Origin: Xanthomonas vesicatoria ATCC 35937
GTDB lineage: Bacteria; Pseudomonadota; Gammaproteobacteria; Xanthomonadales; Xanthomonadaceae
NCBI RefSeq assembly: GCF_001908725.1
Contig: NZ_CP018725.1
Coordinates: 1,240,001 to 1,304,000 of the forward strand
Length of the DNA: 64,000 bases
Direction of reading: 5' to 3'
Positions 23,971 to 37,650 of this stretch are shown here, in pieces. Positions within the stretch are counted from its first letter, which is position 1. Each line of letters opens with the position of its first letter. The notes beneath the pieces are model-generated. The model did no database searches and had not been told where the DNA came from. It saw only the letters and a list, made by a program, of their open reading frames with translations. The translations under genes and the position numbers were made by a program.

Positions 23971-24096
23971 CCCTTCTCCCATCGGGAGAAGGTGGCGCAA
24001 AGCGCCGGATGAGGGTACGAGCGAAGCCTCGTGCACCCGACCGCGCAACTACTGGCCCGTACCCTCACCCCAACCCCTCTCCCGGCGGGAGAGGGG
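23971..24096. repeat. Palindromic repeat element between sufB and sufC
   Basis: It has two outer hairpins: CCTTCTCCC/GGGAGAAGG (23972-23980 with 23984-23992) and CCCCTCTCCC/GGGAGAGGGG (24074-24083 with 24087-24096). Inner complementary segments GGATGAGGGTACG (24007-24019) and CGTACCCTCACCC (24058-24070) lie between them. The whole left half is a diverged inverse of the right half. It resembles the CTCTCCC...GGGAGAG intergenic repeats common in Xanthomonas. Confidence 0.8.
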
Positions 24097-24123
24097 CTAA
24101 AAAAGAATTCGATGGAAGATGAC

Positions 24124-24888
24124 ATGCTAACGATCACCAACCTCCACGCCAGCATCGCCGGCAAAGACATCCTCAAAGGCCTGTCGCTGGACATCCAGCC
24201 CGGCCAGGTGCATGCCCTCATGGGGCCAAACGGCGCGGGCAAGTCCACGCTGGGTAACGTGCTGGCCGGGCGCGATGGCTATGCAGTCAGCGAAGGAAGC
24301 GTGCAGTTCGACGGCAAGGACCTGCTCGATCTGCCGCCGGAAGAACGCGCTGCCGCCGGCCTGTTCCTGGCGTTCCAGTACCCGGTGGAAATCCCCGGCG
24401 TCAACAACACCTATTTCCTGCGCGCGGCACTCAATGCGCAGCGCAAGGCGCGTGGCGAGGAAGAGCTGGACTCGATGCAGTTCCTCAAGCTGGTGCGGCA
24501 GAAGCTGGCCGTGCTGCACCTGAAGGACGAGCTGCTGCATCGCGGCGTCAACGAAGGCTTCTCAGGCGGTGAGAAGAAGCGCAACGAGATCTTCCAGCTG
24601 GCCGTGCTCGAGCCCAAGCTGGCCATCCTAGACGAAACCGACTCCGGCCTGGATATCGATGCGCTCAAGAGTGTGGCCGACGGCGTCAATGCGCTGCGCT
24701 CGCCGGAGCGCTCGTTCCTGGTGATCACCCACTATCAGCGCCTGCTCGACTACATCAAGCCGGACGTGGTGCATGTGCTGTCCGAAGGACGCATCGTGCA
24801 GAGCGGCGGTCCGGAGCTGGCGCTGGAGCTGGAAAAACACGGCTACCACTTTCTGAAGGATCGCGTGGTGCCCGAGGTTGCCGCCTGA
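24124..24888 (+). CDS. sufC: Fe-S assembly ATPase SufC
   Basis: This ABC-type ATPase of the SufBCD complex has 254 residues. Walker A is GPNGAGKST near residue 35, the Q-loop is FLAFQYPVEIPGV, the signature is FSGGEKKRNEI, Walker B is LAILDETDSGLD, and the switch His is in VITHYQRLL. Two in-frame ATGs exist. I choose 24124 because GGAAG lies 5-6 nt upstream and the product starts MLTITNLHA like homologues; ATG 24112 adds four residues. The stop overlaps the sufD start by 1 bp. Confidence 0.96.
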   Translation: MLTITNLHASIAGKDILKGLSLDIQPGQVHALMGPNGAGKSTLGNVLAGRDGYAVSEGSVQFDGKDLLDLPPEERAAAGLFLAFQYPVEIPGVNNTYFLRAALNAQRKARGEEELDSMQFLKLVRQKLAVLHLKDELLHRGVNEGFSGGEKKRNEIFQLAVLEPKLAILDETDSGLDIDALKSVADGVNALRSPERSFLVITHYQRLLDYIKPDVVHVLSEGRIVQSGGPELALELEKHGYHFLKDRVVPEVAA

Positions 24889-26150
24889 TGAGCGCCCTGC
24901 TCGACTCCCTGGCCCGCGGTTTCAGTGGCGACGACGCGCGCCGCGCCGAGCTTGACGCAGCGCTGCAGACCGGCCTGCCCGGCCCGCGCGCAGAAGCGTG
25001 GAAATACACCTCGCTGCGTCAGCTGGAACGGCGCAGCTTTCAGCCGGCGCCGCTGGTGCCGACGCTGCTCGATGCCGCCGTGCTGGACGACATCCCCGCG
25101 CCGCGGCTGGTGTTCGTCAACGGGCGCCCCTCCGCAGCGCTAAGCGATGTTTCGACCTTGCCGGACGGCGTGCAGCTAGACACCTTGTCTGCCGCACTGG
25201 CCGCAGGCGATGACGCACGGCACCTGCTCGGCCGCCGCTTCGACGGCAGCGATGCGGTTTTCGCCCGTCTCAATGCCGCGCTGGCCGACGAAGGCGTGCT
25301 GGTGCGCGTGCACGATGGCGCGCAGATCGCGCTGCCACTGCACATCGTCTTTGTCGGCGTGGCCGGCGAGCACGATCTGTCCTGGCATTACCGGCATCTG
25401 ATCGAACTGCGGGCCGGTGCAGCGCTCAACGTCGTCGAGCATCATCTGCACGTCGGCGACGCGGCGCATCTGGACAACAGCGTGATGCATGTCCATCTGG
25501 GCCAGGACGCGACGCTTTCGCATGCACGCGTGCAGGCCGACAGCGTGCACGCCACCGCCCTGCTGCGCACCGATGCCGTACTGGCTCGGAATGCGCGCTA
25601 CCAACGCGTGGATCTGGAACTGGGTGCCGGCCTGTCGCGGCACGAACTCAATGTGCGCCTGGAAGGCAGCAATGCCCAGCTCACCGCCAATGGCGTGTTG
25701 CTGGGCAATGGCCGCCGCCATGTCGACACTCGTCTGGGCATCGAACACATTGCCCGTGACACCGCCTGCGAGCTGGTCTGGCGCGGTGTCGGTGCCGACC
25801 GCAGCCGCGTGGTATTCCACGGCGGCATCCATATCCGCCAGGGCGCCGATGGCACCGACGCGCGGCTGTCCAACAAGAATCTGCTGCTCTCTTCCAATGC
25901 CGAAATCGATACGCAGCCGGTGCTGGTGATCGATGCCGACGAAGTGCAGGCGGCGCATGGCGCTACCGTGGGTCAGCTCGACGACAACGCCTTGTTCTAT
26001 CTGCGCTCGCGCGGCTTGCCGCAAGCCGAGGCGCAGCGCCTGTTGAGCGCAGCGTTCTGCCACGAGCCACTGCGGGTGCTGCCGGCTGCGTTGAGCGCCG
26101 TGCTGGCCTTGCAGCTGGACCGTGCCCTGAATTCGGCGGGCGTGGCATGA
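24888..26150 (+). CDS. sufD: Fe-S cluster assembly protein SufD
   Basis: This 420-residue SufB-like subunit pairs with SufB on SufC. Visible are REAWKYTSLRQLERRSF-type N-terminal residues, a long beta-helix with Ala/His-rich repeats, and the C-terminal HGATVGQLDDNALFYLRSRG with AAFCHEPL. It lacks the SufB Cys-rich segment. It is translationally coupled on both sides (TGATG with sufC, ATGA with sufS). Confidence 0.95.
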   Translation: MSALLDSLARGFSGDDARRAELDAALQTGLPGPRAEAWKYTSLRQLERRSFQPAPLVPTLLDAAVLDDIPAPRLVFVNGRPSAALSDVSTLPDGVQLDTLSAALAAGDDARHLLGRRFDGSDAVFARLNAALADEGVLVRVHDGAQIALPLHIVFVGVAGEHDLSWHYRHLIELRAGAALNVVEHHLHVGDAAHLDNSVMHVHLGQDATLSHARVQADSVHATALLRTDAVLARNARYQRVDLELGAGLSRHELNVRLEGSNAQLTANGVLLGNGRRHVDTRLGIEHIARDTACELVWRGVGADRSRVVFHGGIHIRQGADGTDARLSNKNLLLSSNAEIDTQPVLVIDADEVQAAHGATVGQLDDNALFYLRSRGLPQAEAQRLLSAAFCHEPLRVLPAALSAVLALQLDRALNSAGVA

Positions 26151-27391
26151 ACGCGCCTGCCGTCACTCAGTCTAGTACCCCGGATTGGGAACGTGTCCGC
26201 TCGGATTTCCCGTTGCTGATGCGGCAGGTGCATGGCAAGCCGCTGATCTATTTCGACAACGCCAACACCGGGCAGAAGCCGCTGCAGGTGATCGCCGCGA
26301 CCGACGAGTTCTATCGGCGTCAGAACGCCAACGTCAGCCGTGCGGTGCATGCGCTGGGCAGCGAAGCCACCGACGCATTCGAAGGCGCCCGCAGCAAGCT
26401 GGCGCGCTTTCTCAACGTGCGTGCCGACGAGCTGGTGCTGTGCAGCGGCACCACCTTTGCGATCAATCTGGTGGCGTATTCGTGGGCGTTGCCGCGCCTT
26501 GGGCCAGGCGATGTCATCCTGATCACGCGCATGGAGCACCACGCCAACATCGTGCCGTGGCAACTGGTGGCCCAGCGCACCGGTGCCAGCGTTCGCGTGG
26601 CCGAGATCACCCCCGAGGGCGCGCTGGATCTGGAGGCACTGCGCAAGGCGATGACGCCGGACGTCAAACTGCTGGCGATCACACATGTGTCCAACGTGCT
26701 GGGCACGGTCAACCCGGTGCGCGAGATCTGCCGCGATGCACGCAAGCGCGGCATCGTCACCATGGTGGACGGCTCGCAGGCCGCGCCGCATCGGCGCATC
26801 GACGTGGCCGCGATCGGCTGCGATTTCTACGCCATCACCGGCCACAAGATGTGCGGGCCCACCGGCACCGGCGCGCTGTGGGCACGCCGCGAGCATCTGC
26901 AGGCCATGCCGCCGTTCCTGGGCGGTGGCGAAATGATCAAGGAAGTCAGCTTCGAAGGCACCGTCTACAACGATGCCCCGCACAAGTTCGAAGCCGGCAC
27001 GCCCAACATCGCCGGCTTCATTGGCCTGGGCGCCGCAGTGGATTATCTGGAATCGATCGGCCTGGAGCATGTGGAAGCGCGCGAGGCCGACCTGCTGGCG
27101 CACTTCACCGAAGAGCTGCAGCGGATCGACGGCCTGCGCATTTTCGGTACCACGCCCGACAAGGCCGCCGTGGTGTCGTTCCTGATCGATGGCGCGCATT
27201 CGCACGACCTGGCCACCCTGCTCGACCTCGAAGGCGTGGCAGTGCGCTCCGGCCAGCACTGCGCGCATCCGCTGCTGCAGTTTTACGGTGTTGCGGCAAC
27301 CTGCCGCGCGTCGCTGGCGTTCTACAACACGCACGACGAGATCGAGCGCTTTGTTGCAGCGTTGGTGAAGGTGCGTCAGCTACTGGGCTGA
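26147..27391 (+). CDS. sufS: Cysteine desulfurase SufS
   Basis: This 414-residue class II cysteine desulfurase supplies sulfur for cluster assembly. It shows IYFDNANTGQKP near the N-terminus, THVSNVLGTVNPV near 180, the PLP lysine in ITGHKMCGPTGTG near 230, and the catalytic Cys in SGQHCAHPLL near 370. No sufE or sufU partner is adjacent, so the sulfur acceptor must be encoded elsewhere. It overlaps sufD by 4 bp. Confidence 0.96.
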   Translation: MNAPAVTQSSTPDWERVRSDFPLLMRQVHGKPLIYFDNANTGQKPLQVIAATDEFYRRQNANVSRAVHALGSEATDAFEGARSKLARFLNVRADELVLCSGTTFAINLVAYSWALPRLGPGDVILITRMEHHANIVPWQLVAQRTGASVRVAEITPEGALDLEALRKAMTPDVKLLAITHVSNVLGTVNPVREICRDARKRGIVTMVDGSQAAPHRRIDVAAIGCDFYAITGHKMCGPTGTGALWARREHLQAMPPFLGGGEMIKEVSFEGTVYNDAPHKFEAGTPNIAGFIGLGAAVDYLESIGLEHVEAREADLLAHFTEELQRIDGLRIFGTTPDKAAVVSFLIDGAHSHDLATLLDLEGVAVRSGQHCAHPLLQFYGVAATCRASLAFYNTHDEIERFVAALVKVRQLLG

Positions 27392-27392
27392 T

Positions 27393-27526
27393 GGAAATCG
27401 AGAATAGGGAATAGGGAATTGCAAAAGCGGCTCTCCCGCGTTCTGTTGCAGTTCGACGCGTTATATTTCGCTCTTCGAGCAGCGCAATGCTTTTCCCGAT
27501 TCCCGATTCCCGATTCCCGATTCCCA
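27393..27526. repeat. Inverted-repeat element of the GGGAATCGG family after sufS
   Basis: The left arm (27393-27430) has GAATA/GGGAATAGGGAATT units ending GCAAAAGCGG. The right arm (27488-27526) starts GCTTTTCCCGATTCCC and repeats CGATTCCC four times. The arms are complementary (GGGAATT-GCAAAAGC against GCTTTTCCCGATTCCC) around a core of about 57 nt. Confidence 0.75.
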
Positions 27527-27545
27527 CTGCCAACAACCCGCCTTC

Positions 27546-28085
27546 ATGCAGACCACTACGTTCCGCACTGCCACTGTCGATGACATCGACGCCCTTGTCC
27601 TGCTGGTGACCTCGGCCTATCGCGGCGACAGCAGCCGCGTGGGGTGGACCACCGAGGCGGATATTCTCGATGGGGCGCGCATCGATCCGGCGGTGCTGCG
27701 TCAGGACATCCTGCGCGAGCGCAGCCTGGTGTTGCTGGTGGAACAGGACGGGCGCCTGTTGGCGTGCGCGCATATCGCCGACGACGACGGCGCGGGGTAT
27801 TTCGGCATGTTCGCGGTGGACCCGTCCCTGCAGGGCAGCGGGCTCGGCAAGACGCTGCTGGCCGAAGGCGAGCGCATCGTGGCCACCGAGTGGAAACTGC
27901 CGGTGATGCGCATGACTGTCATCGATGTGCGCAACGAGCTCATCGCCTTCTACGAACGCCGTGGCTATCGCCGCACCGGTATCGTTAAACCCTTCCCGTA
28001 TGGCGACGAACGCTTTGGCGTGCCGCTGCGGCAGGATCTGCGCTTCGAAGTGCTGGAAAAACCGCTGGACGTCTCTGCGCCATGA
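27546..28085 (+). CDS. GNAT family N-acetyltransferase
   Basis: This 179-residue protein has a GNAT fold: the acetyl-CoA loop DPSLQGSGLGKTLL is near residue 95, followed by VMRMTVIDVRNELIAFYERRGYRRTGI. The acceptor substrate is unknown. It lies behind the suf genes and overlaps the Rieske gene by 4 bp, so it is probably co-expressed with it, with the repeat element separating it from sufS. Confidence 0.88.
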   Translation: MQTTTFRTATVDDIDALVLLVTSAYRGDSSRVGWTTEADILDGARIDPAVLRQDILRERSLVLLVEQDGRLLACAHIADDDGAGYFGMFAVDPSLQGSGLGKTLLAEGERIVATEWKLPVMRMTVIDVRNELIAFYERRGYRRTGIVKPFPYGDERFGVPLRQDLRFEVLEKPLDVSAP

Positions 28086-28411
28086 GCGAAACCTGGACCT
28101 TCGTCTGCGCAAGCGACGCGCTGCTGCCCGGCGAACTGCAGACCGTGTGGGATGAAGTGACCGACGCGCCCATCGTGGTGTTCAACCTCGACGGCACGCT
28201 GTACGCGCTGGAAGACCGCTGCAGCCATGAAGACTACGAGCTGTCGCCCGGCAGCTTCGACCCGGTTGCCGGCACCATCGAATGCCAGCTGCACAGCGCG
28301 CGCTTCGACGTACGCGATGGCCGCCCGCTGTGCGCGCCCGCCTACACTGCCGTGCCCAAGTTCCCGGTCAAACGCAAACACGACGGCATCTGGACCCGCG
28401 ACGACCGCTAG
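28082..28411 (+). CDS. Rieske [2Fe-2S] ferredoxin-like protein
   Basis: This 109-residue single-domain Rieske protein has cluster ligands in RCSHEDYEL (CxH) and IECQLHSARFD (CxxH), 18 residues between the two motifs, with the domain ending in PVKRKHDGIW. It resembles non-haem oxygenase ferredoxin subunits. Its place directly behind suf suggests a Fe-S electron carrier used with, or matured by, that system; the partner enzyme is not visible. Confidence 0.9.
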   Translation: MSETWTFVCASDALLPGELQTVWDEVTDAPIVVFNLDGTLYALEDRCSHEDYELSPGSFDPVAGTIECQLHSARFDVRDGRPLCAPAYTAVPKFPVKRKHDGIWTRDDR

Positions 28412-28496
28412 CGCGGCAGCGTCAAGCGGCAAAGGGGCGCGACTGAGTCCGCCATCTGTTTCATCGCAGGCGCCTTTGGTCGGCAACGATTGCAAA

Positions 28497-28516
28497 GAAG
28501 AATGATTTGCATTTAA
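28497..28516. promoter_or_regulatory. Fur-box-like operator upstream of the siderophore receptor
   Basis: The sequence gaagAATGATTTGCATTtaa is an imperfect palindrome similar to Fur boxes (consensus built from NATWAT units). It lies about 235 bp before the receptor start, so either the leader is long or a promoter lies between. Repression by ferric Fur is inferred. Confidence 0.5.
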
Positions 28517-28749
28517 GATCGCAGCCCTTCAGGTCTTCTTAACATCTGACCTGCCCTGCGATCCCATGCGCCCTGCACTGTTCGACAGCTTCGCTCTACG
28601 TATGCCTCGCCCGCGCTTCCCAGCGCGGCGCGGCTACGCGTGCGGTAAACGACAGTCGGCTGCGACGGGCTAGCGAGCGTACGCACACCCTTCCGCATCC
28701 GCCGAGCCATCGCCAGGCCGGAGCACCGCTTTCCTTTTCGAGACGTCTC

Positions 28750-31068
28750 ATGACTCCCAGGATTTCCCCGCTCACCTCGGCCGTGCTCTTGACCCTGTCC
28801 GCTCCCGCGTTCGCCCAGCCCGGCGATGCGCCGGCACCCCCGGGCGCGGTGGATCTGGATGCCATCCGGGTACAGCAGGAACGTGCGCAAAAGCCGTCCT
28901 CGCCCAAGTACACCGAAGCGCTGCGCGACACCCCGCAGACGATCACCGTGGTCACCAAGCAGACCATGGACCAGCAAAACCTGCTGTCGCTGCGCGACGT
29001 GCTGAGCACCTTGCCTGGCATCACCTTCGGCGCGGGCGAAGGCGGCGGCGGTTACGGCGACAGCATCAACCTGCGCGGCTTCACTGCCAGCAGCGACATC
29101 ACCACCGATGGCGTGCGCGACAGCGCGCAGTACAGCCGCAGCGACACCTTCAACCTCGAGGCGGTGGAGCTGATCAACGGCGCCAACTCGGCCATGTCCG
29201 GCGCCGGCTCGGTGGGCGGCAACATCAACCTGGTGACCAAGACCGCCGGGCAAGGCGACTTCACCAACGTGCTGATCGGCGGCGGCAGCGACCGCTACGG
29301 ACGCCTCACCGTCGACAGCAACTACGACTTCGAAAACGGCACCGCCGTGCGCTTGAACGCGATGGGTCACACGCAAGATGTGCCGGGCCGCGATGAAGAG
29401 TTCCGTCACCGCTGGGGCTTTGCGCCGTCGATCGCGTTTGGCCTGGGCTCGGACACGCGCTTCACGCTGAGCTACCTGCACCAGCACGACAACAATCTGC
29501 CGCAGTACGGCGTGCCGTTCGCGCTCAGCCCGTTCAACGACGGCCCGCTGCCGGGCGTGGACCGCGAAACCTATTACGGCTACCGCAATGTGTCGCGCCA
29601 GGAAATCGACGTGGACATGCTGACCGGCGTGCTGGAAATGGACTTCGACGACAACGTCAAGCTGCGCAGCCTGGCGCGGCTGCAGCGCGTGGACCAGACC
29701 ACATCGGCTACCGCACCGGAAGGCACCTGGTGCCTGCCCAACAACACCAACGCCTACACCGGCCGTGCCTGCGTCGGCCAGCCGCCGTCCACCTGGAATC
29801 CCAATAGCGGCCCACGCGGGCTGGTGCGCGACACCGAGAACTTCATCGCGCATAGCCAGACCGACCTGACCGCCACCCTGCACACCGGCGCCATCGAGCA
29901 CCGCGTGGTCGCCGGCGTGGCCTTCAGCAAGGAAGATTTCGAACTCAACAGCGGCAGTGTCTTCCGCAACGCCGACGGCTCCACCACCGGCATCACCTAT
30001 CCGCTGCAGACCTTCGACAACCCGTACAACATCTGGACCGGCCCGCAGAATTATTTCCGCACCGGACGCAGCAAGGGCAGTCTGACCAATCAGGCGGTGT
30101 ATCTGTTCGACACACTGCAGTTCAACGAGCAATGGATGCTCAACCTGGGCGGCCGTTACGAACACAACGAAGGCGACAGCACCACCTACACCGTCAATGC
30201 CACCGGCGGTGTGACCGGCGTGACTCCGGGCTTCCCGGCAGGCAGCAAGGAGGATTTGTTCTCCTACCGCGCCGGTCTGGTATTCAAGCCGGTCGACAAC
30301 GCCAGCCTGTATCTGTCCTACGCCAACAGCAAGACCCCGTCCAAGGCATCGGTCAACGGCTCATGCACGCCGATCGCTACCGCCACGGCCGGCGCCAACT
30401 GCAATGTCGCGCCTGAAAGCGCGGTCAATATCGAACTCGGCGGCAAGTGGGACGTGTTGAACGAGCGTCTGGCTCTGACGGCGGCGGTCTTCCGCAATGA
30501 GCGCGAAAACTACAAGGTCAACAGCGGCGACCCGCTGATTCCCGAGCAGGTGCTCGACGGCAAGGCGCGCGTGGACGGCATCGCACTGGGCGCGGCCGGC
30601 TACCTCACCGAGCGCTGGTCGGTCTTCGCCAACTACACCTTCCTGGACAGCGAGGTGCTGCAGAGCGTCTCCAACCGCACCGCCAGCCTCACCGGCGACC
30701 CGATTGCCGGACGCGAACTGGTGCAGACCCCGCGCAATGCCGGCAATCTCTGGACCACTTATGCGCTCAACCAGTGGACGTTCGGTTACGGCGTCAATTA
30801 CCAGGGTAGCTTCTACCCGAACAACACCTCGACCGCGGTCTACCACAAGACCGACGCGTACTGGGTACACCGTGCGATGGTCGGCCTGCGCGTCAATGAC
30901 TGGCTCAGCCTGCAGTTGAACGTCAACAATCTGTTCGACAAGGAGTACTACACCAGCATCCGCAACAACCTCACCGTCAACGCCGCGGGTACCGTGACCG
31001 CTGGCAGTGGCTGGGCGTTGCCGGGCGATGGCCGCTCGGCGGTGTTGAACGCTACCTTCAGTTTCTAA
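28750..31068 (+). CDS. TonB-dependent catecholate-type siderophore receptor (Fiu/PiuA-like)
   Basis: This 772-residue outer-membrane receptor has a signal peptide (about 1-24, ending PAFA). The plug domain follows: DTPQTITVVTKQTMDQQNLLSLRDVLSTLPGI near residue 60, SINLRGFTASSDITTDGVRD near 97, and an ELINGANSAMSGAGSVGGNINLV plug signature. A 22-strand barrel ends in VLNATFSF with the C-terminal Phe. It imports ferric siderophores using TonB energy. The downstream piuC and Sel1 genes match the Pseudomonas piuA neighbourhood. Confidence 0.93.
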   Translation: MTPRISPLTSAVLLTLSAPAFAQPGDAPAPPGAVDLDAIRVQQERAQKPSSPKYTEALRDTPQTITVVTKQTMDQQNLLSLRDVLSTLPGITFGAGEGGGGYGDSINLRGFTASSDITTDGVRDSAQYSRSDTFNLEAVELINGANSAMSGAGSVGGNINLVTKTAGQGDFTNVLIGGGSDRYGRLTVDSNYDFENGTAVRLNAMGHTQDVPGRDEEFRHRWGFAPSIAFGLGSDTRFTLSYLHQHDNNLPQYGVPFALSPFNDGPLPGVDRETYYGYRNVSRQEIDVDMLTGVLEMDFDDNVKLRSLARLQRVDQTTSATAPEGTWCLPNNTNAYTGRACVGQPPSTWNPNSGPRGLVRDTENFIAHSQTDLTATLHTGAIEHRVVAGVAFSKEDFELNSGSVFRNADGSTTGITYPLQTFDNPYNIWTGPQNYFRTGRSKGSLTNQAVYLFDTLQFNEQWMLNLGGRYEHNEGDSTTYTVNATGGVTGVTPGFPAGSKEDLFSYRAGLVFKPVDNASLYLSYANSKTPSKASVNGSCTPIATATAGANCNVAPESAVNIELGGKWDVLNERLALTAAVFRNERENYKVNSGDPLIPEQVLDGKARVDGIALGAAGYLTERWSVFANYTFLDSEVLQSVSNRTASLTGDPIAGRELVQTPRNAGNLWTTYALNQWTFGYGVNYQGSFYPNNTSTAVYHKTDAYWVHRAMVGLRVNDWLSLQLNVNNLFDKEYYTSIRNNLTVNAAGTVTAGSGWALPGDGRSAVLNATFSF

Positions 31069-31079
31069 CCTTCCGGCAC

Positions 31080-31102
31080 GCCGTCCCCACATTCCGGACG
31101 GC
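31080..31102 (+). other. Hairpin between receptor gene and piuC
   Basis: A 7-bp stem GCCGTCC / GGACGGC with a 9-nt loop occupies most of the 48-bp spacer and lacks a T run. It may protect the receptor mRNA 3' end or attenuate transcription into piuC. Confidence 0.5.
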
Positions 31103-31116
31103 ATGGAGATCGCCGC

Positions 31117-31803
31117 ATGCTGCTGCCCATTCCCGATGTCTTGACGCCCGCGCAGTTCGGCGAGTTGCGCGCGCGGCTGGACGCGGCCGACTGGGCAGAC
31201 GGCCGCATCACCGCCGGCCATCAATCCGCACAGGCCAAGGACAACGCGCAGTTACCCGAGGACAGCGCGGTTGCGCGCGAGGCCAGCGCCTTGGTGCTGG
31301 AGGCGCTCTCCCGCAGCAGCACGTTCTTTTCCGCCGTACTGCCGCGTCGAATCTATCCGCCGTTGTTCAATCGCTATAGCGGCGGGCAGTCGTTCGGGTA
31401 TCACGTCGACAACGCGGTGCGTTACGACCGCAGCCGCGGTGGGGCCGAGCCGGTACGCACCGATGTGTCGGGCACGCTGTTTCTCAGCGACCCGGACAGT
31501 TACGACGGTGGTGAGCTGGTGATCGAAGACACCTACGGCACGCAGTCGGTGAAGCTGCCAGCCGGACATCTGGTGATCTACCCCGGCACCAGCCTGCATA
31601 AAGTGATGCCGGTGACGCGCGGCACGCGTGTCGCCTCGTTCTTCTGGACCCAAAGCATGCTGCGCGACGATGCGCAGCGCCGTCTGTTGTTCGAACTGGA
31701 CGTGTCGATCCGTCGTTTGACCCAGGACACGCCCGGGCATCCGTCGTTGATCCAGCTCACCGGCGTGTATCACAACCTGCTGCGGCAGTGGGCCGATGTC
31801 TGA
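31117..31803 (+). CDS. piuC: Fe(II)/2-oxoglutarate-dependent hydroxylase PiuC
   Basis: This 228-residue PKHD-type oxygenase has iron ligands His96 and Asp98 in GYHVDNAVR and His161 in GTSLHKV, with a 2-oxoglutarate Arg in [11 protein letters not shown]. PiuC is linked to iron uptake receptors of the Fiu/PiuA type; the substrate is unknown. It follows the receptor and its 3' end overlaps the Sel1 gene by 8 bp. Confidence 0.95.
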
Positions 31804-32554
31804 GCCTGCGATTGACCCGGCCCTGCTGATTGCGCTGCTGCAGACCCAGCCCGCTCAGGCAGTGGCATTGCTGCGCAAGTCAGCCGCCGGGCAGGATGTG
31901 ACTGCACAACTGTTGCTCGCGCAGCTGTATGCCGAAGGCCGCGGCATTGCCGCCGATCCGGCGAAGGCGATGCTCTGGTACGAGGTGGCTGCCAATGCAG
32001 GGCATCCGGAAGCGATGAACCAACTGGGCCGCTGTCACGAGCTGGGCTTTGGCACCGCCATCAACGAGACGCTGGCCGCGTTGTGGTATCGCCGCGCCGC
32101 CGAGCATGGCCTGGACTGGGGCATATACAACCTGGCGCATCTGTACGCCTCCGGCCGCGGCGTGGCGCAGGACCATACACACGCATTGACGCTGTACCGC
32201 ACCGCGGCCGAACGTGGTCACGCCAAATCGATGAATTTTGTGGCGCGCTATCTTGATCAGGGTCTGGCCTGCGTCGCAGATCCGCTGGCGGCACGCGACT
32301 GGTATCGCCGCGCCGCAGAGGCGGGCGATTTTCGCGGACAGGCCAGCTATGCAACATTGCTCGCCGATGAAGGCAGGCTCGATCAGGCCGAGCACTGGAT
32401 GCGCCGCGCCATCGACGGCGGGCATGCCGGCTTCCTGCATCAGCTCACGCCCGTGCTGGCCAACGCGCCGCAGCCGCGTCTGCGCGCCTTGCTCAGCGAT
32501 GTGGCTGCGCGGCAGTCGCAGCTGCAACCGCCCGTTACCGCAGACGTGGCATAA
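31796..32554 (+). CDS. Sel1-repeat (TPR-like) protein of the piuC locus
   Basis: This 252-residue protein has about five Sel1-like repeats (for example [25 protein letters not shown] and [21 protein letters not shown]). No signal peptide is seen, so it should be cytoplasmic and act as a protein-protein scaffold. A Sel1 gene next to piuC also occurs in Pseudomonas, which argues for a shared role in the iron locus. Confidence 0.9.
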
Positions 32555-32560
32555 ACCGGC

Positions 32561-33199
32561 ATGCCCGCTTCCAACGACACCATCGCCACTGCACAGCAAC
32601 GCCGCGGTTTCTGGCTGCGCATGTTGCATCAATGGCACTGGATCAGCTCGGCGTTGTGTTTGATCGGCATGCTGCTGTTTACGGTCACCGGGCTCACTCT
32701 CAATCACGCCGCGCGGATCGAAGCCAGCCCGTCCACCGAGCAACGCACGCTCACCCTTCCGCCTACGCTGCTGAAGACATTGGGCACACGCCAGGACGCC
32801 AACGCCCCGCTGCCGCCGCGCGTGGCGCAATGGCTGGGGCGCGAGCTCGATATCAGCATCGGCACGCGCAACGGCGAATGGTCGTCCGACGAGGTGTATG
32901 TTGCGCTGCCCCGACCCGGCGGCGACGCCTGGCTGAGCCTGGACCGCAGCACCGGCGCGGTCGAATACGAACGCACCGGGCGTGGTGCAATCGCCTATCT
33001 CAACGACCTGCACAAGGGCCGCAACGCCGGGCCGGCCTGGGGTTGGTTCATCGACGTGTTCGCCATCGCCTGCCTGGTGTTCTGCATCACCGGCCTGTTC
33101 CTGCTGCACCTGCATGCGCGTCAGCGCAGCATGACCTGGCCGCTGGTCGGCCTGGGCCTGCTGATTCCGCTGCTGCTTGCCTTGCTGTTGATCCACTGA
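32561..33199 (+). CDS. PepSY-associated transmembrane protein of the iron locus
   Basis: This 212-residue protein has three membrane helices: about 25-48 (HQWHWISSALCLIGMLLFTVTG), about 160-182, and about 188-211. A periplasmic PepSY-like segment of about 100 residues lies between the first two. Histidines sit at the helix ends (LHQWH, LNH, LHKG, LLHLH) and could bind haem, as in PepSY_TM electron-transfer proteins. It starts 7 bp after the Sel1 gene. Confidence 0.82.
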   Translation: MPASNDTIATAQQRRGFWLRMLHQWHWISSALCLIGMLLFTVTGLTLNHAARIEASPSTEQRTLTLPPTLLKTLGTRQDANAPLPPRVAQWLGRELDISIGTRNGEWSSDEVYVALPRPGGDAWLSLDRSTGAVEYERTGRGAIAYLNDLHKGRNAGPAWGWFIDVFAIACLVFCITGLFLLHLHARQRSMTWPLVGLGLLIPLLLALLLIH

Positions 33200-33220
33200 C
33201 CTACCTCACCGGAGACGATC

Positions 33221-33736
33221 ATGCGCGCCACCCTGACCATCGCTCTGAGCGGCCTGCTCGCCATGCCGGCGTATGCGGCCATGCTCGACATCAACGTCGA
33301 AATACCCAAGCTCAATGTCGCCGAATACCACCGCCCGTACGTGGCGATCTGGCTGGAAGGCGCAGACCAGAAGGTCGCCGCCAATCTGGCGGTCTGGTAC
33401 CAATCCAAGGACACCGCCGAAGGCCACGGCACCAAGTGGTTGCCGGATCTGCGCCAGTGGTGGCGCAAGAGCGGGCGCACGCTGGACGTGCCGGTCGATG
33501 GCGTCACCGGACCGACCCGGCCGGCCGGCGCGCATGCGTTGTCGTTCACCGACACCAAGGGCGCGCTGAAGTCGCTGCCGGCTGGCCAGTACACGCTGGT
33601 GGTGGAAGCCGCGCGCGAAGTCGGTGGCCGCGAGTTGGTCAAGGTGCCTTTCACCTGGCCCGCGACGTCTGCGCAGTCTGCCAAGGCCAGCGGCAGCAGC
33701 GAACTGGGCGCAGTGAGCCTGACGGCCAAGCCCTGA
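33221..33736 (+). CDS. DUF2271 periplasmic protein, candidate flavinylated electron carrier
   Basis: This 171-residue protein has a signal peptide (1-19, ending PAYA) and a beta-rich DUF2271 domain: LDINVEIPKLNVAEYHRPYVAIWLE-type start, KWLPDLRQWWRKSG near 72-85. Residues 93-99 read DGVTGPT, close to the ApbE target pattern Dxx(S/T)GA(S/T) but with Pro in place of Ala. Thr99 would be the FMN site. An apbE gene lies 1.3 kb downstream. The electron-transfer role follows from published association of DUF2271 with ApbE and is inferred here. Confidence 0.82.
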   Translation: MRATLTIALSGLLAMPAYAAMLDINVEIPKLNVAEYHRPYVAIWLEGADQKVAANLAVWYQSKDTAEGHGTKWLPDLRQWWRKSGRTLDVPVDGVTGPTRPAGAHALSFTDTKGALKSLPAGQYTLVVEAAREVGGRELVKVPFTWPATSAQSAKASGSSELGAVSLTAKP

Positions 33737-33904
33737 TGCAGATGCGCGCGGATGCGGTGCCGCCGTGCATGCATCCATGTGTATGACGCACGCGCTGCGT
33801 TGCGCAGGTGCGTATCGACTTTGCTCCCCACGCATCCACGCAGCGCCGCAGTGCGCTGATCAGACACGTGACCCACCCGCCTTATCGTCCTTCAAGGAGT
33901 TGTC

Positions 33905-34708
33905 ATGAAACGTTCGCTCGTTCTGGTCGCCCTGCTTGCCGCACTGCCCGTCAGCGCACTCGCGCACAAGGCCTGGCTGCTGCCCTCACAGACCGTCATT
34001 GCCGGCGAGGCGCCGTGGATCACTGTCGATGCGGCGGTGTCCAACGACCTGTTCTACTTCAACCATGTGCCGCTGCGCCTGGACAACCTGAGCATCACCG
34101 CGCCCGATGGCAGCACGCTGAAGCCGGAGAACCCGGCCACCGGCAAGTACCGCAGCGTGTTCGATCTGCAACTCACCCAACCGGGCACCTACAAGCTCAG
34201 CATCCTCAACGCCGGCCTGTTCGCCAGCTGGAAGGAAGACGGCAAACCCAAGCGCTGGCGGGGCAACGAGGCCAGCTTCGCCACCGAAGTGCCGAAAGAC
34301 GCGAAAGAGCTGCAGGTGTCGCAATCGCTCAATCGCGTGGAAACCTTCGTGACCCGTGGCGCGCCGACGACCACCGCGTTCAAGCCCAGCGGCAAGGGGA
34401 TCGAGCTGATTCCGGTCACCCACCCCAACGATCTGGTTGCCGGTGAAGCGGCGCAGTTCACCCTGCAACTGGACGGCAAGCCGGCAGCCGGGCTGGAGAT
34501 CGAGATCGTGCGTGGCGGCACGCGCTATCGCGATGCGCAGAACGAGATCAAGCTCAAGACCGACGCCAAGGGCAGCTTCAGCGTGACCTGGCCGGAACCG
34601 GGCATGTACTGGCTGGAAACCACCAGCGAAGACACCAAGACCTCGCTGCCGCAGGCCAAGCAGCGTCGCCTGGGTTATGTGGTGACGCTGGAAGTGTTGC
34701 CGCAATAG
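33905..34708 (+). CDS. DUF4198 periplasmic protein
   Basis: This 267-residue protein has a signal peptide (1-20, ending SALA). The mature N-terminus is HKAWLLPS, a typical exposed His for metal binding in this family, followed by two beta-sandwich domains ([14 protein letters not shown]... and [24 protein letters not shown]). DUF4198 proteins resemble CbiK/nickel or iron-transport accessory proteins. A strong AAGGAG site precedes the ATG. It is probably part of periplasmic iron handling in this locus. Confidence 0.85.
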
Positions 34709-35065
34709 CGCGGCTTACACCACTGCGACGCTGCCGCAAAGTGGGTGCGGTCGGTGCCCGGAATCCGCGTGTTCCCCCTCGCACACTCCGGCTCCCGTGC
34801 GCCGTTCACACCCTCCTGGCGACCGCTCGCTACGTTTTTAACCGCAGGCAAGGGGCCTGGTGACGTGCCAGGCCCCTTGCTCGATGGAGCCGTCGCCCCG
34901 CGCTGTTGTCCGTGCGGCGACGGCCACGTCGGCATGGTCGGGATGGTCGGGATGATGCGCACGGCCGATGGCGTCCATCGCCCACCACCGGAATGCTGAT
35001 GCAATCGGCTGCGCCGCGCGTCACCATCAATGTTCCTGCTGCAGTAGCCGCTCACCAGTCCACGT
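34709..35065. other. Intergenic region DUF4198 / apbE with a strong hairpin
   Basis: This stretch of 357 bases has no supported gene. A perfect 13-bp stem GCAAGGGGCCTGG (34848-34860) pairs with 34868-34880 around a 7-nt loop, without a T run. A short GGTCGGGAT tandem (about 34937-34955) follows. A stop codon in the apbE frame at 35045 rules out an N-terminal extension of ApbE. Confidence 0.6.
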
Positions 35066-36040
35066 ATGAACTCACTTGCTCCCGCAGACACCACGCTTGC
35101 CACCCTGGGCGGCCATAGCATGGGCACGACCTGGAGCGTGAAGCTGGTGGCGCCGCGTGCGCGCGACCTGCATCCCTTGCATGCGCGTATCCAGGGTGCG
35201 CTCGACCGCGTGGTCGCGCAAATGAGCACCTGGGAAGCGGACTCGGATATCAGCCGCTACAACCGTGCTGCGGCCGGTCACTGGCAGACATTGCCCGATG
35301 ACTTCTTCACCGTGCTGCGCACCGCACTGCAGGTTGCGCAGGCCAGCGACGGCGCGTTCGACCCCACGGTCGGGCCGATGGTCGAACTGTGGGGCTTTGG
35401 CGCCTCCGCCAGCCGGCGCCACGTGCCCTCGCCCGAGCAAATCGCGCTGGCCAGGCTGCGCTGCGGCTGGCAACGCCTGACGCTGGACGACCAGCGGGTG
35501 CTGCAGCCCGGTGCTATCGCGCTGGATCTGTCCGGCATCGCAAAAGGATTTGGCGTGGACTGCGTGCGGCACGCCTTGCAACAGGCCGACATCGCCAGCG
35601 CGTTGATCGACGTGGGCGGCGAGCTGTCCGGCTATGGGCGCAAACCTGATGGCAGCGCATGGCGTGTGCTGGTCGAATCCGCACCCGATGAAGACGCCGG
35701 CGCGGCATTGCCGGTACGTGTGCTCACCTTGGACGGGTTGGCAGTCGCTACCTCGGGCGATCGTTGGCACCGCTTCGATGCCGACGGCCTGCGCTACGCG
35801 CACACCTTCGACCCACGCACCGGCGCACCGATTCCGCATGCGCCTGCCGCCGTCACCGTCCTGGCGCGCGATGCCATGCAGGCCGATGCCTGGGCCACCG
35901 CGATGACCGTGCTCGGCACCGATGCCGGTCTTGCCTATGCCGCCAAGACCGACCTGGCAGTGCGCTTTCTGACGCGCTACGATGGCAACCTGCACGAAGC
36001 GATGAGCCCTGCGTTCGCGCAGCATCTGGCGGCGTCATGA
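35066..36040 (+). CDS. apbE: FAD:protein FMN transferase, ApbE family
   Basis: This 324-residue protein has the ApbE motifs: GHSMGTTWSVKL at the start, GAFDPTVGPMVELWGF near 95, DLSGIAKGFGVD near 155, ALIDVGGELSGYG near 177, HTFDPRTGAPIPH near 250, and a Mg-binding DAMQADAWATAMTVLG near 272. It attaches FMN covalently to Ser/Thr of target proteins; the nearby DUF2271 protein is the likely client. No signal peptide or lipobox is present, which is unusual. The stop overlaps the next gene by 4 bp. Confidence 0.93.
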   Translation: MNSLAPADTTLATLGGHSMGTTWSVKLVAPRARDLHPLHARIQGALDRVVAQMSTWEADSDISRYNRAAAGHWQTLPDDFFTVLRTALQVAQASDGAFDPTVGPMVELWGFGASASRRHVPSPEQIALARLRCGWQRLTLDDQRVLQPGAIALDLSGIAKGFGVDCVRHALQQADIASALIDVGGELSGYGRKPDGSAWRVLVESAPDEDAGAALPVRVLTLDGLAVATSGDRWHRFDADGLRYAHTFDPRTGAPIPHAPAAVTVLARDAMQADAWATAMTVLGTDAGLAYAAKTDLAVRFLTRYDGNLHEAMSPAFAQHLAAS

Positions 36041-37650
36041 GTGCCGCAAGCCCACGCGTGTGGATGGGTAACGGGATGGCGCTGCTGACACTTGCCGCCT
36101 TCGTCGGATGGCTTGCCCGCCTGCACGACGGTGCGTGGTGGAGCCCGCCCACACCGCATCGTTGGCAATTAGCCGCCGTCGGAATAGCCGCGTATGCCGT
36201 GCTGTGCGTTGCGGTCTTCCTGCACCGGGCCCGCGCCAACACGGCGCATGGCGATAACAGCGGCATACTGATCGTGTGGGCAAGCCAGACCGGGTTCGCC
36301 CGCGAACTGGCCGAGCGTAGCGCTGTGGCCTTGCAATCGGTAGGTATCGGCGCCTACGCACTTCCGCTGGAGGCAGTGGGTACCGAGCAGCTTGCGCGCG
36401 TGCCGCGTTTGCTGTGCATCGTCAGCACCACGGGCGAAGGCGATGCCCCGGATCACGCACAGGCTGCGGAGCGTTACTGGCTCGCCGACAACGGTCAGGA
36501 TCTGGCCGCCGTTCAGTATGCGGTGCTGGCACTCGGCGATCGCCGTTACACCCAGTTCTGCGCATTCGGCCGCCGTATCGACCACCGCCTGCAGGCGCGT
36601 GGCGGCACCCGCCTGTTCGAACGTATCGAGGTCGACAATGCCGACCCGCGCGCATTGCAGCAATGGCAGCAGCGTCTGTCGACATTGGCGCCTGCACTTG
36701 CGACGCAGCCGGATTGGAGCGTGCCGACCTACGCCGCATGGCAGCTGCGCGAACGCGTCCACATCAATCCAGGCAGTGCCGGCGCACCGATCCATCGGCT
36801 GCGTCTCACGCCTATCGATGGCTCGCTACCGCAGTGGGAGGCTGGCGACATCGCCGAGATCGCACCACCGAACGCACCGGACAGTGTCGAAGCCTGGTTG
36901 CAGCGCCATCGCCGCGACGGCTCGGACATCATCGACGGTCGTACGCTGCGCGACTGGCTTGGCCGCTCGCAACTGCCGACCGATGCACAGACAGCGGCCG
37001 CGGCGTCATCGGACGCAGCCACCCTGGTGCGTGGCCTGCTTGCACTGCCACATCGCGAATACTCGCTGGCCTCGGTCCGCGACGAGGGCCACGCCGAACT
37101 GTTGATTCGCGAACATCGGCATGCCGATGGGCAGCTCGGACTCGGCAGCGGCTGGCTCTGTGTGCATGCTCCCGTCGGCGTGTCGATCGCCTTGCGCCTA
37201 CGCAGCAATCCGGGGTTTCATCCGCCCGCCCCCGAGCAACCCATGTTGCTGATCGGCAATGGCACCGGCATCGCCGGGTTGCGCGCACACCTGCGCGCAC
37301 GCATCGCCGCCGGTGTGCGCGATAACTGGCTGATCTTTGGCGAACGCAATGCCGCGCACGATGCGCTGTATGCCGACGAACTGCGGCAGTGGCAACACGA
37401 TGGCTGGATCGCGCGTCTGGACCTGGTGTACTCGCGCGCTCACAACCCATCGGTGCGCTATGTACAACATGCATTAGCCGCCGCCAGCGACAGCCTGCGC
37501 CAATGGATCGACCGCGGCGCCTGCATCTACCTCTGCGGCAGCCTGCGCGGCATGGCGCCGGAAGTGGACAGCACCCTCGATACCCTGCTGGGCATCGAGG
37601 TCAGGCAAGAGCTGCTGCGCAGCGGCCGCTACCGTCGCGACGTGTATTGA
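36037..37650 (+). CDS. Membrane-anchored flavodoxin/FAD-NAD(P)H reductase (sulfite-reductase flavoprotein-like)
   Basis: This 537-residue protein has two N-terminal membrane helices (about 10-30 and 44-64). A flavodoxin domain (IVWASQTGFARELAE near 80, STTGEGDAPDHA near 129, LALGDRRYTQFCAFG near 167) and a ferredoxin-reductase-like part (HREYSLAS FAD motif, LIGNGTGIAGLRAHL, C-terminal CGSLRGMAPEV) follow. It probably moves electrons from NAD(P)H to the membrane, feeding the PepSY/DUF2271 chain for iron reduction (inference). It matches the type next to piuA in Pseudomonas, but here the PepSY part is a separate gene. Confidence 0.88.
   Translation: MSAASPRVWMGNGMALLTLAAFVGWLARLHDGAWWSPPTPHRWQLAAVGIAAYAVLCVAVFLHRARANTAHGDNSGILIVWASQTGFARELAERSAVALQSVGIGAYALPLEAVGTEQLARVPRLLCIVSTTGEGDAPDHAQAAERYWLADNGQDLAAVQYAVLALGDRRYTQFCAFGRRIDHRLQARGGTRLFERIEVDNADPRALQQWQQRLSTLAPALATQPDWSVPTYAAWQLRERVHINPGSAGAPIHRLRLTPIDGSLPQWEAGDIAEIAPPNAPDSVEAWLQRHRRDGSDIIDGRTLRDWLGRSQLPTDAQTAAAASSDAATLVRGLLALPHREYSLASVRDEGHAELLIREHRHADGQLGLGSGWLCVHAPVGVSIALRLRSNPGFHPPAPEQPMLLIGNGTGIAGLRAHLRARIAAGVRDNWLIFGERNAAHDALYADELRQWQHDGWIARLDLVYSRAHNPSVRYVQHALAAASDSLRQWIDRGACIYLCGSLRGMAPEVDSTLDTLLGIEVRQELLRSGRYRRDVY

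Follow-up and report, generated by a model that had tools for sequence, protein, structure and literature searches.

A predicted Fur-controlled siderophore-receptor and PepSY/DUF2271 locus of Xanthomonas vesicatoria whose ApbE flavin transferase has no recognizable export signal

The closest described relatives of the locus examined in the current report are the PepSY-like flavinylation systems of Meheust et al. (2021; PMC8238504), in which genes for a PepSY protein (PF16357), DUF2271 and DUF4198 proteins, the flavin transferase ApbE and NAD-binding reductases are clustered, for which iron reduction has been proposed, some of which are accompanied by TonB receptors and which are Fur-repressed in Shewanella and Caulobacter. 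Our subject is a set of eight genes in a 64,000-nucleotide stretch of the genome of Xanthomonas vesicatoria ATCC 35937 (assembly GCF_001908725.1, contig NZ_CP018725.1, positions 1,240,001 to 1,304,000 of the forward strand), which we refer to in its entirety as the window. A PepSY-like protein (PF03929/PF16357) is encoded in a cluster with ApbE and DUF2271, as in the published systems, and the locus differs from those in the motif TGPT of its DUF2271 protein, in an ApbE that carries no signal peptide and in the presence of piuA-piuC-sel1 directly upstream and in the same direction. As such it is an unusual variant of a known system and fits the published proposal; the missing export signal of ApbE is the new element.

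Other described systems share parts of this arrangement. The Caulobacter genes CCNA_03155-03159 and cciT-cciO (PMC12004947) represent the same families, are direct targets of Fur and show fitness defects with ethylenediaminetetraacetic acid (EDTA), but the two parts are not adjacent to each other there. The DUF4198/DUF2271 pairs of Alteromonas (PMC7190382) lie by iron-responsive TonB receptors and are raised under iron limitation, but DUF2271 is fused in that genus to PepSY or ApbE and is a separate protein in the window. The PepSY siderophore reductases of the FoxB type (HiuB and FoxB; PMC12424826, PMC13038864) have histidines for two haems at both membrane faces and belong to siderophore-linked operons, whereas the locus encodes a protein with one PepSY domain and three helices and has DUF2271 and ApbE in addition. 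A cytosolic ApbE of Klebsiella (PMC12052999) likewise has no signal peptide; its substrate, a fumarate reductase, is soluble and cytosolic, whereas the likely substrate in the window is exported. Fur control, flavinylation of DUF2271 and reductases of the PepSY type are all in print for relatives of the locus.

The relatives with which the window was compared came from two collections, in which L numbers designate loci and G numbers genomes. The order sample consisted of 200 genomes of the host's order, its own included; DUF2271 was found in 59 of them, at 64 places above cut-off besides that of the window, and 60 of these places were fetched. The named set consisted of the best 80 of at least 583 confirmed matches to one query; it is rich in Burkholderiales and also holds Stutzerimonas, Alphaproteobacteria and others, some of its loci end at contig edges (e.g. 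L114 and L160), and two (L152 and L176) repeat genomes of the order sample. Within the host's family, the comparison was made for 25 loci with a PepSY-type cluster, which leaves out L085, L086 and L088 as having none.

The ApbE of the window has 18 residues ahead of its conserved MGT, with no hydrophobic stretch among them and neither a signal peptide nor a lipobox, and an in-frame stop lies seven codons 5' of its start. The predicted catalytic residues, placed by motif on alignments, are kept almost throughout (Ser230 and His246 in 109 of 109 sequences each, Asp274 in 107 of 109), as would be expected of an active enzyme. Its nearest relatives are ApbEs of Xanthomonas. It is the sole ApbE match in the host genome, which also has a single DUF2271 protein and no match to FMN_bind; DUF2271 is, accordingly, the only recognizable ApbE substrate that this genome encodes.

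The same feature is widespread among the relatives. Signals were called by a hydrophobicity rule together with eight hand corrections (L161, L117 and L183 taken out; L037, L039, L056, L066 and L074 put in), not by a trained predictor; among 113 ApbEs encoded in DUF2271-bearing loci, 20 had a signal and 93 had none by the rule, or 22 and 91 after the hand review. Removal of two duplicates (L176 and L152) and of four loci in which the cluster is of a different type (L084, L085, L087 and L088) left a tree set of 107, with 16 ApbEs that have a signal and 91 that have none, and a quick tree of them implied at least four changes between the two states, or two if starred branches only are counted. 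As a control, 20 ApbEs were picked by hand from genomes of this order that lack DUF2271, and 17 of them had a signal by the same kind of rule; one of the three exceptions has a visible lipoprotein signal just below threshold, and the other two come from G101 and G180. Nineteen named loci have no ApbE in the cluster; all 16 of their genomes that were searched encode one elsewhere, and each of the 13 unlinked ApbEs fetched from them has a signal of the lipoprotein type (loci including L111, L116, L120, L131, L138, L140, L154 and L155). Under a slightly looser rule, signals were called in 129 of 142 DUF2271 and 142 of 142 DUF4198 proteins, but in 3 of 47 PiuC and 3 of 19 Sel1 proteins. We found no statement that ApbEs of PepSY/DUF2271 clusters lack signals in the available text of PMC8238504, PMC11334425 or PMC12052999, or among the results listed by our literature searches; signal predictions were recorded by Meheust et al. 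in supplementary files or figures (PMC8238504). Of the 91 signal-less enzymes, 38, all of them in named loci (Burkholderiales and Alphaproteobacteria, e.g. L110, L112, L118 and L141), have in common an RVLIP-like N-terminal motif that precedes the ApbE domain by about 20-25 residues; it is absent from the ApbE of the window.

The protein on which this ApbE might act is itself predicted to be exported: the DUF2271 protein has a signal score of 2.12 by the hydrophobicity rule, with the N terminus MRATLTIALSGLLAMPAYAA. Its acceptor-type motif, DGVTGPT, departs from the Dxx[S/T]GA[S/T] given for ApbE recognition in a review (PMC12052999) by having Pro in place of Ala, and the acceptor residue is retained. 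Thr99 is present in all 143 loci compared, with Ala (112), Pro (30) or Glu (1) at position 98 and the Gly kept in 121, and the invariance of this one residue amid varying neighbors argues that it is still in use. No protein of the locus other than DUF2271 was picked up in a scan of all eight for exact acceptor motifs. The original prediction, made from the letters of the stretch and a list of its open reading frames, had DUF2271 as a flavinylated protein; the invariant Thr in an acceptor-type motif speaks for that assignment, and the TGPT form and the signal-less enzyme speak against its being flavinylated by this ApbE in the periplasm. Support from other systems comes from the reports that a seven-residue motif or tag suffices for ApbE (PMC12052999) and that co-expression of signal-truncated ApbE and DUF2271 in E. 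coli led to flavinylation (PMC8238504).

A whole clade of 25 rows that includes the window combines [ST]GPT with an ApbE that has no signal (support of 100 in the Shimodaira-Hasegawa-like approximate likelihood ratio test, SH-aLRT), and the query and the best 120 of 7915 DUF2271 matches all have the Pro form, pattern matching having yielded 117 TGPT and 3 SGPT and having passed over one further TGPT. Among the order-sample genomes with [ST]GPT (24, the host's own included), ApbE is the sole one in 22, G111 and G195 having two, and none of the 24 has a match to FMN_bind. Tight coupling between the loss of the signal and the Pro motif was considered and rejected: all 25 [ST]GPT loci are signal-less, yet SGAT is the motif in 56 of the 93 loci without a signal. 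Joint export of ApbE and DUF2271 by the twin-arginine (Tat) route was also rejected, since 28 of the 143 DUF2271 proteins have two adjacent arginines among their first 12 residues, but the twin-arginine pattern occurs in none. Further variants of the motif exist in nature; the DUF2271 proteins of L131, L177, L186, L140, L155, L124 and L133 have SAAT or TSAT with the Thr unchanged, and represent natural variants that bear on ApbE specificity.

The account that we offer for these observations, tentatively and with somewhat more doubt than belief for the whole of it, is that of a Fur-repressed iron-acquisition locus in which flavinylation precedes export. The receptor would import a ferric, probably catecholate, siderophore, and PiuC would act on something linked to that siderophore. 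Electrons from NAD(P)H would be passed by the reductase through flavins to two haems of the PepSY protein and thereby across the inner membrane, and a DUF2271 protein carrying flavin mononucleotide (FMN) on Thr99 would deliver them in the periplasm to Fe(III) held by the siderophore, with DUF4198 perhaps binding the divalent metal that is released. ApbE would attach the FMN in the cytoplasm, to the linear DGVTGPT of the unfolded DUF2271 precursor, which would then be exported by Sec; with attachment in the cytoplasm, there would be no need to export flavin adenine dinucleotide (FAD). Pre-export attachment would be the simplest account of a signal-less ApbE within the cluster, FAD being at hand in the cytoplasm. 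A more general version, namely that the signal-less ApbEs of many PepSY/DUF2271 clusters flavinylate the unfolded Sec precursor, that Sec passes the chain with its FMN and that the clade of the window evolved TGPT for this purpose, we would place just below the midpoint between doubtful and probable.

The regulatory part of the account rests on a Fur-like box ahead of the receptor gene, which the original prediction had noticed and which proved to be real. Its letters, AAGAAGAATGATTTGCATT, are exactly the 19-base Fur box printed for the TonB receptor gene XCC2772 of X. campestris pv. campestris (PMC1790865), and they constitute the best match in the 64 kb to the published X. campestris Fur consensus (15 of 19 positions on one strand and 14 on the opposite one, as compared to at most 14 in 20 surrogate sequences, each of 64 kb, from a first-order Markov model). 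The block that contains the box is also the most conserved part of the promoter, at 98.7% over 25 bases versus a mean of 64%, in an alignment of 30 sequences from the window and 29 congeners, and a match was present in 33 of 35 genomes of the genus. XCC2772 is one of seven receptors that were induced under iron starvation, and a fur mutant given wild-type Fur regained iron repression of these receptor genes, XCC2772 included (PMC1790865). We take XCC2772 to be the orthologue of the window receptor because the boxes are identical and the genes are of the same type, and the iron response foreseen for the locus is to this extent already in print; the available text of that study treats the receptor alone, however, and makes no mention of XCC2771 or XCC2773. 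In a table for Stenotrophomonas maltophilia derived from RegPrecise, fhuA, sel1, piuC, pepSY and the next gene are listed as predicted members of the Fur regulon (PMC6240677). Judged by its box, the locus is a predicted Fur target. The E. coli Fur consensus matched at just 11 of 19 positions of the box, and it was the printed X. campestris consensus that settled the matter. A guessed variant, GCAAA...TTTGC, was discarded; it occurs at only two sites in the genome, one of them in the window, and is therefore no regulon motif.

The original prediction had left room for the genes to co-occur in closely related strains alone, which is excluded for the five-gene module PepSY-DUF2271-DUF4198-ApbE-reductase: this order recurs across the fetched loci of the order sample, and the module recurs across families and orders. 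Alongside PepSY and DUF2271 in 53 order-sample loci, DUF4198 is encoded in 52, ApbE in 46, the reductase in 43 and PiuC in 26, with the PepSY gene almost 8 kb off and on the opposite strand in one of the 53 (L087). The 25 family loci all have DUF4198, ApbE and the reductase, and have PiuC in 22 and Sel1 in 7 cases, and the 80 named loci have PepSY in 79, DUF4198 in 80, ApbE in 61, the reductase in 69, PiuC in 18 and Sel1 in 12. Of the piuA-piuC-Sel1 core named in the original prediction, Sel1 is no conserved member. Linkage to PiuC is strong within the host's family and recurrent, yet not general, elsewhere. Loci L084, L085, L087 and L088 represent a second kind of DUF2271 cluster, with no PepSY gene adjoining.

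Conservation extends to the residues on which a route for electrons might depend. Candidate haem-ligand histidines at the helix ends of the PepSY protein, as originally described, are conserved in 120 to 138 of 138 rows (His26 in 136, His49 in 120 with Asn in 16, His151 in 138 and His185 in 127). In a model of the protein, with helices at 5-48, 158-186 and 190-211, the pair His26 and His185 would lie at one membrane face and the pair His49 and His151 at the opposite face, the arrangement that would be expected of a di-haem protein like FoxB. FoxB was absent from the rows returned by a fold comparison of this model, and the di-haem reading therefore rests on the family assignment and the histidines. 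In the reductase, a flavodoxin domain and an NAD-binding domain resemble those of CysJ-type enzymes. An electron route from NAD(P)H through the flavoreductase and PepSY haem to DUF2271 is close to what Meheust et al. put forward for PepSY-like systems (PMC8238504) and is prefigured by the iron-receptor pairs of Alteromonas (PMC7190382), and is therefore not new; what became doubtful in the route as first drawn for the window is that this ApbE, which has no export signal and faces a TGPT motif, attaches the flavin in the periplasm.

The DUF4198 protein has His21 at its predicted mature N terminus. This residue is present in 137 of 137 rows, following AxA in 126 of them, and resembles the mature N-terminal His of the metal-binding DUF4198 proteins described in PMC12537917, the solved one of which binds Ni2+, its preferred metal, through His1 and His18. 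Metal binding by the locus protein is plausible by this analogy, with the difference that its further histidines are at mature positions 34 and 153. His21, His54 and His173 are found together in 114 of 137 rows and represent a candidate metal site. A search of the PDB with the DUF4198 protein of the locus returned no sequence match.

Several observations weigh against attachment of the cofactor before export. Since 16 of the 107 cluster ApbEs carry a signal and genomes without a cluster ApbE have secreted ones, attachment in the periplasm can serve DUF2271. ApbE and DUF2271 are apparently joined in one frame of 500-678 codons in L084, L085, L087 and L088, in each case with a signal; an ApbE-DUF2271 fusion exists in Alteromonas together with a PepSY-DUF2271 fusion (PMC7190382), and another in a protein to which Meheust et al. 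refer by name (PMC8238504). In an early study cited by PMC12052999, a cytosolic ApbE could not substitute for a periplasmic one, and the same review reports that exchange of Ala for Val, at the position where Pro is found here, left about 50% flavinylation in another substrate. FMN on DUF2271 of this clade is itself a modification predicted from the motif, and the literature covered, as far as available, does not document that Sec lets a flavinylated chain pass. An electron chain of the same composition, in which ApbE enters the periplasm by some route other than a classical signal and acts there as in the published model, would accommodate most ApbEs on record (PMC12052999) as well as the signalled minority in the clusters, and the RVLIP-like motif of other signal-less ApbEs could be a targeting element. 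The N terminus of the window ApbE, however, offers neither that motif nor a hydrophobic stretch, and with no twin-arginine pattern in any of the 143 DUF2271 proteins there is none to carry a folded partner; we regard this route as rather unlikely.

Three genomes of the host's family (G101, G141 and G180) present a difficulty of a different sort. They keep the receptor, PiuC and a signal-less ApbE side by side, with no PepSY, DUF2271, DUF4198 or reductase gene found in the 19.5 kb surrounding ApbE, and nowhere in these genomes was there a DUF2271 match or a PepSY_TM_like_2 match above cut-off. The lone ApbEs retain their catalytic residues, and their ratios of nonsynonymous to synonymous substitution (dN/dS) are 0.26-0.29, as compared to 0.06-0.08 (receptor) and 0.11-0.15 (PiuC) in the same three genomes and 0.07-0.22 for ApbE in eight module-bearing pairs. 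They may be in slow decay or may have a second job. A second job would suit the possibility that DUF2271 of the window clade is unflavinylated, that the ferric siderophore receives its electrons straight from the PepSY haems, in the manner of FoxB, which has been described with haems and no flavin protein, and that ApbE serves another cytosolic substrate or the handling of FAD. The change of Ala to Pro in the motif would also be explained. Against this we set the persistence of Thr99 in 143 of 143 loci in spite of its variable neighbors, the want of any FMN_bind match in the genome, the joint presence of ApbE and DUF2271 in 25 of 25 family loci with a PepSY-type cluster and the apparent mild relaxation of the lone ApbEs, which is what slow decay would produce. 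We consider an unflavinylated DUF2271 unlikely, though the likeliest of the alternatives to pre-export flavinylation. The lone-ApbE loci occupy 6021-10146 of L240, 9297-13284 of L241 (minus strand) and 6167-10154 of L242, and in them ApbE has outlived its presumed substrate; of these loci, L240 was the one examined for synteny with HutD and M20 genes.

The final acceptor might also be something other than siderophore iron, such as another metal or a periplasmic process, if the operon were shared only through its response to iron. A PepSY_TM protein of Bordetella has been tied to copper, the solved DUF4198 prefers Ni2+ (PMC12537917) and PiuC lies near the module in just 18 of the 80 named loci, but the published Fur control of the receptor (PMC1790865), the retention of PiuC in 22 of 25 family loci, the importance of the Caulobacter homologues under EDTA, which lowers cell iron, and the proximity of the Alteromonas pairs to iron-responsive receptors (PMC7190382) all point toward iron, and we think such an acceptor improbable. 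Least credible to us is that the piu part and the flavin part are neighbors with no functional coupling. In some relatives several kilobases separate the two, or they face opposite ways, and in Caulobacter they occupy separate places (PMC12004947); their linkage is nevertheless repeated across families and orders in differing arrangements, and predicted members of the Fur regulon stand together in S. maltophilia (PMC6240677).

The features of the locus are listed in Table 1. All eight genes run in one direction and bear out the names originally given to them, each protein matching a Pfam family with best-domain E-values from 2.8e-84 to 1.2e-21. The catecholate receptor Fiu is among the four best solved relatives of the receptor, together with other siderophore receptors. 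For PiuC, the match to chains of solved PiuC structures has an E-value of 4.5e-93, in keeping with a hydroxylase of the PKHD type. The reductase matches CysJ models partially and below their cut-offs, as well as solved CysJ and P450 reductases, and its start is taken as that which overlaps apbE by 4 bases rather than the start of the open reading frame at 35764. The genes overlap or are separated by at most 48 bases, except for 168 bases between DUF2271 and DUF4198 and 357 bases between DUF4198 and ApbE.

Table 1. Coordinates of the locus in the 64,000-nucleotide window
Feature	Position	Strand	Basis or remark
Fur box	28495..28513	+	upstream of receptor gene; same letters as XCC2772 box in Table 1 of PMC1790865
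TonB-dependent catecholate-type siderophore receptor (PiuA/Fiu-like)	28750..31068	+	Pfam barrel and plug; NCBIfam TIGR01783 above cut-off
PiuC, Fe(II)/2-oxoglutarate dioxygenase	31117..31803	+	NCBIfam NF003975, 361.8 bits (cut-off 180)
Sel1-repeat protein	31796..32554	+	PF08238, 4 repeats
PepSY_TM_like_2 membrane protein, predicted di-haem electron conduit	32561..33199	+	PF16357, E 2.8e-84
DUF2271 protein, Sec-type signal peptide, acceptor motif DGVTGPT (Thr99)	33221..33736	+	PF10029, E 1.1e-52
DUF4198 secreted protein, His at predicted mature N terminus	33905..34708	+	PF10670, E 2.6e-63
sX9 repeat, outside the system	34769..34843	+	Rfam RF02228; between DUF4198 and apbE genes
ApbE flavin transferase without signal peptide	35066..36040	+	PF02424, E 1.3e-82
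Membrane-anchored flavodoxin/NAD(P)H reductase (CysJ-like)	36037..37650	+	PF00258 and PF00175

The wider of the two gaps holds an sX9 element, which carries a terminator-like stem (34817-34832). RF02228 has 75 matches in the host genome and 9 to 98 in each of 35 genomes of the genus (98 being the number of candidates scored), and sX9 is therefore considered a dispersed repeat; at the gathering threshold it was missing from both congeneric loci tested, and the idea of a riboregulator specific to the operon was given up. No promoter was detected in a scan for sigma-70 promoters. On the 5' side, sufC, sufD, sufS, a GNAT gene and a gene for a Rieske protein lie on the same strand (24031-28411), and on the 3' side are HutD, on the opposite strand, and an M20 peptidase.

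The fitting of a cofactor before export is normally regarded as a privilege of the Tat route. If the ApbE of these clusters is truly cytoplasmic, the cofactor would be fitted before export by Sec, and the usual picture, in which ApbE and FAD meet in the periplasm, would be incomplete for a large group of Proteobacteria. Since each genome has a single enzyme and a single likely substrate, the locus would offer a clean system for probing whether flavinylation is linked to the use of siderophore iron.

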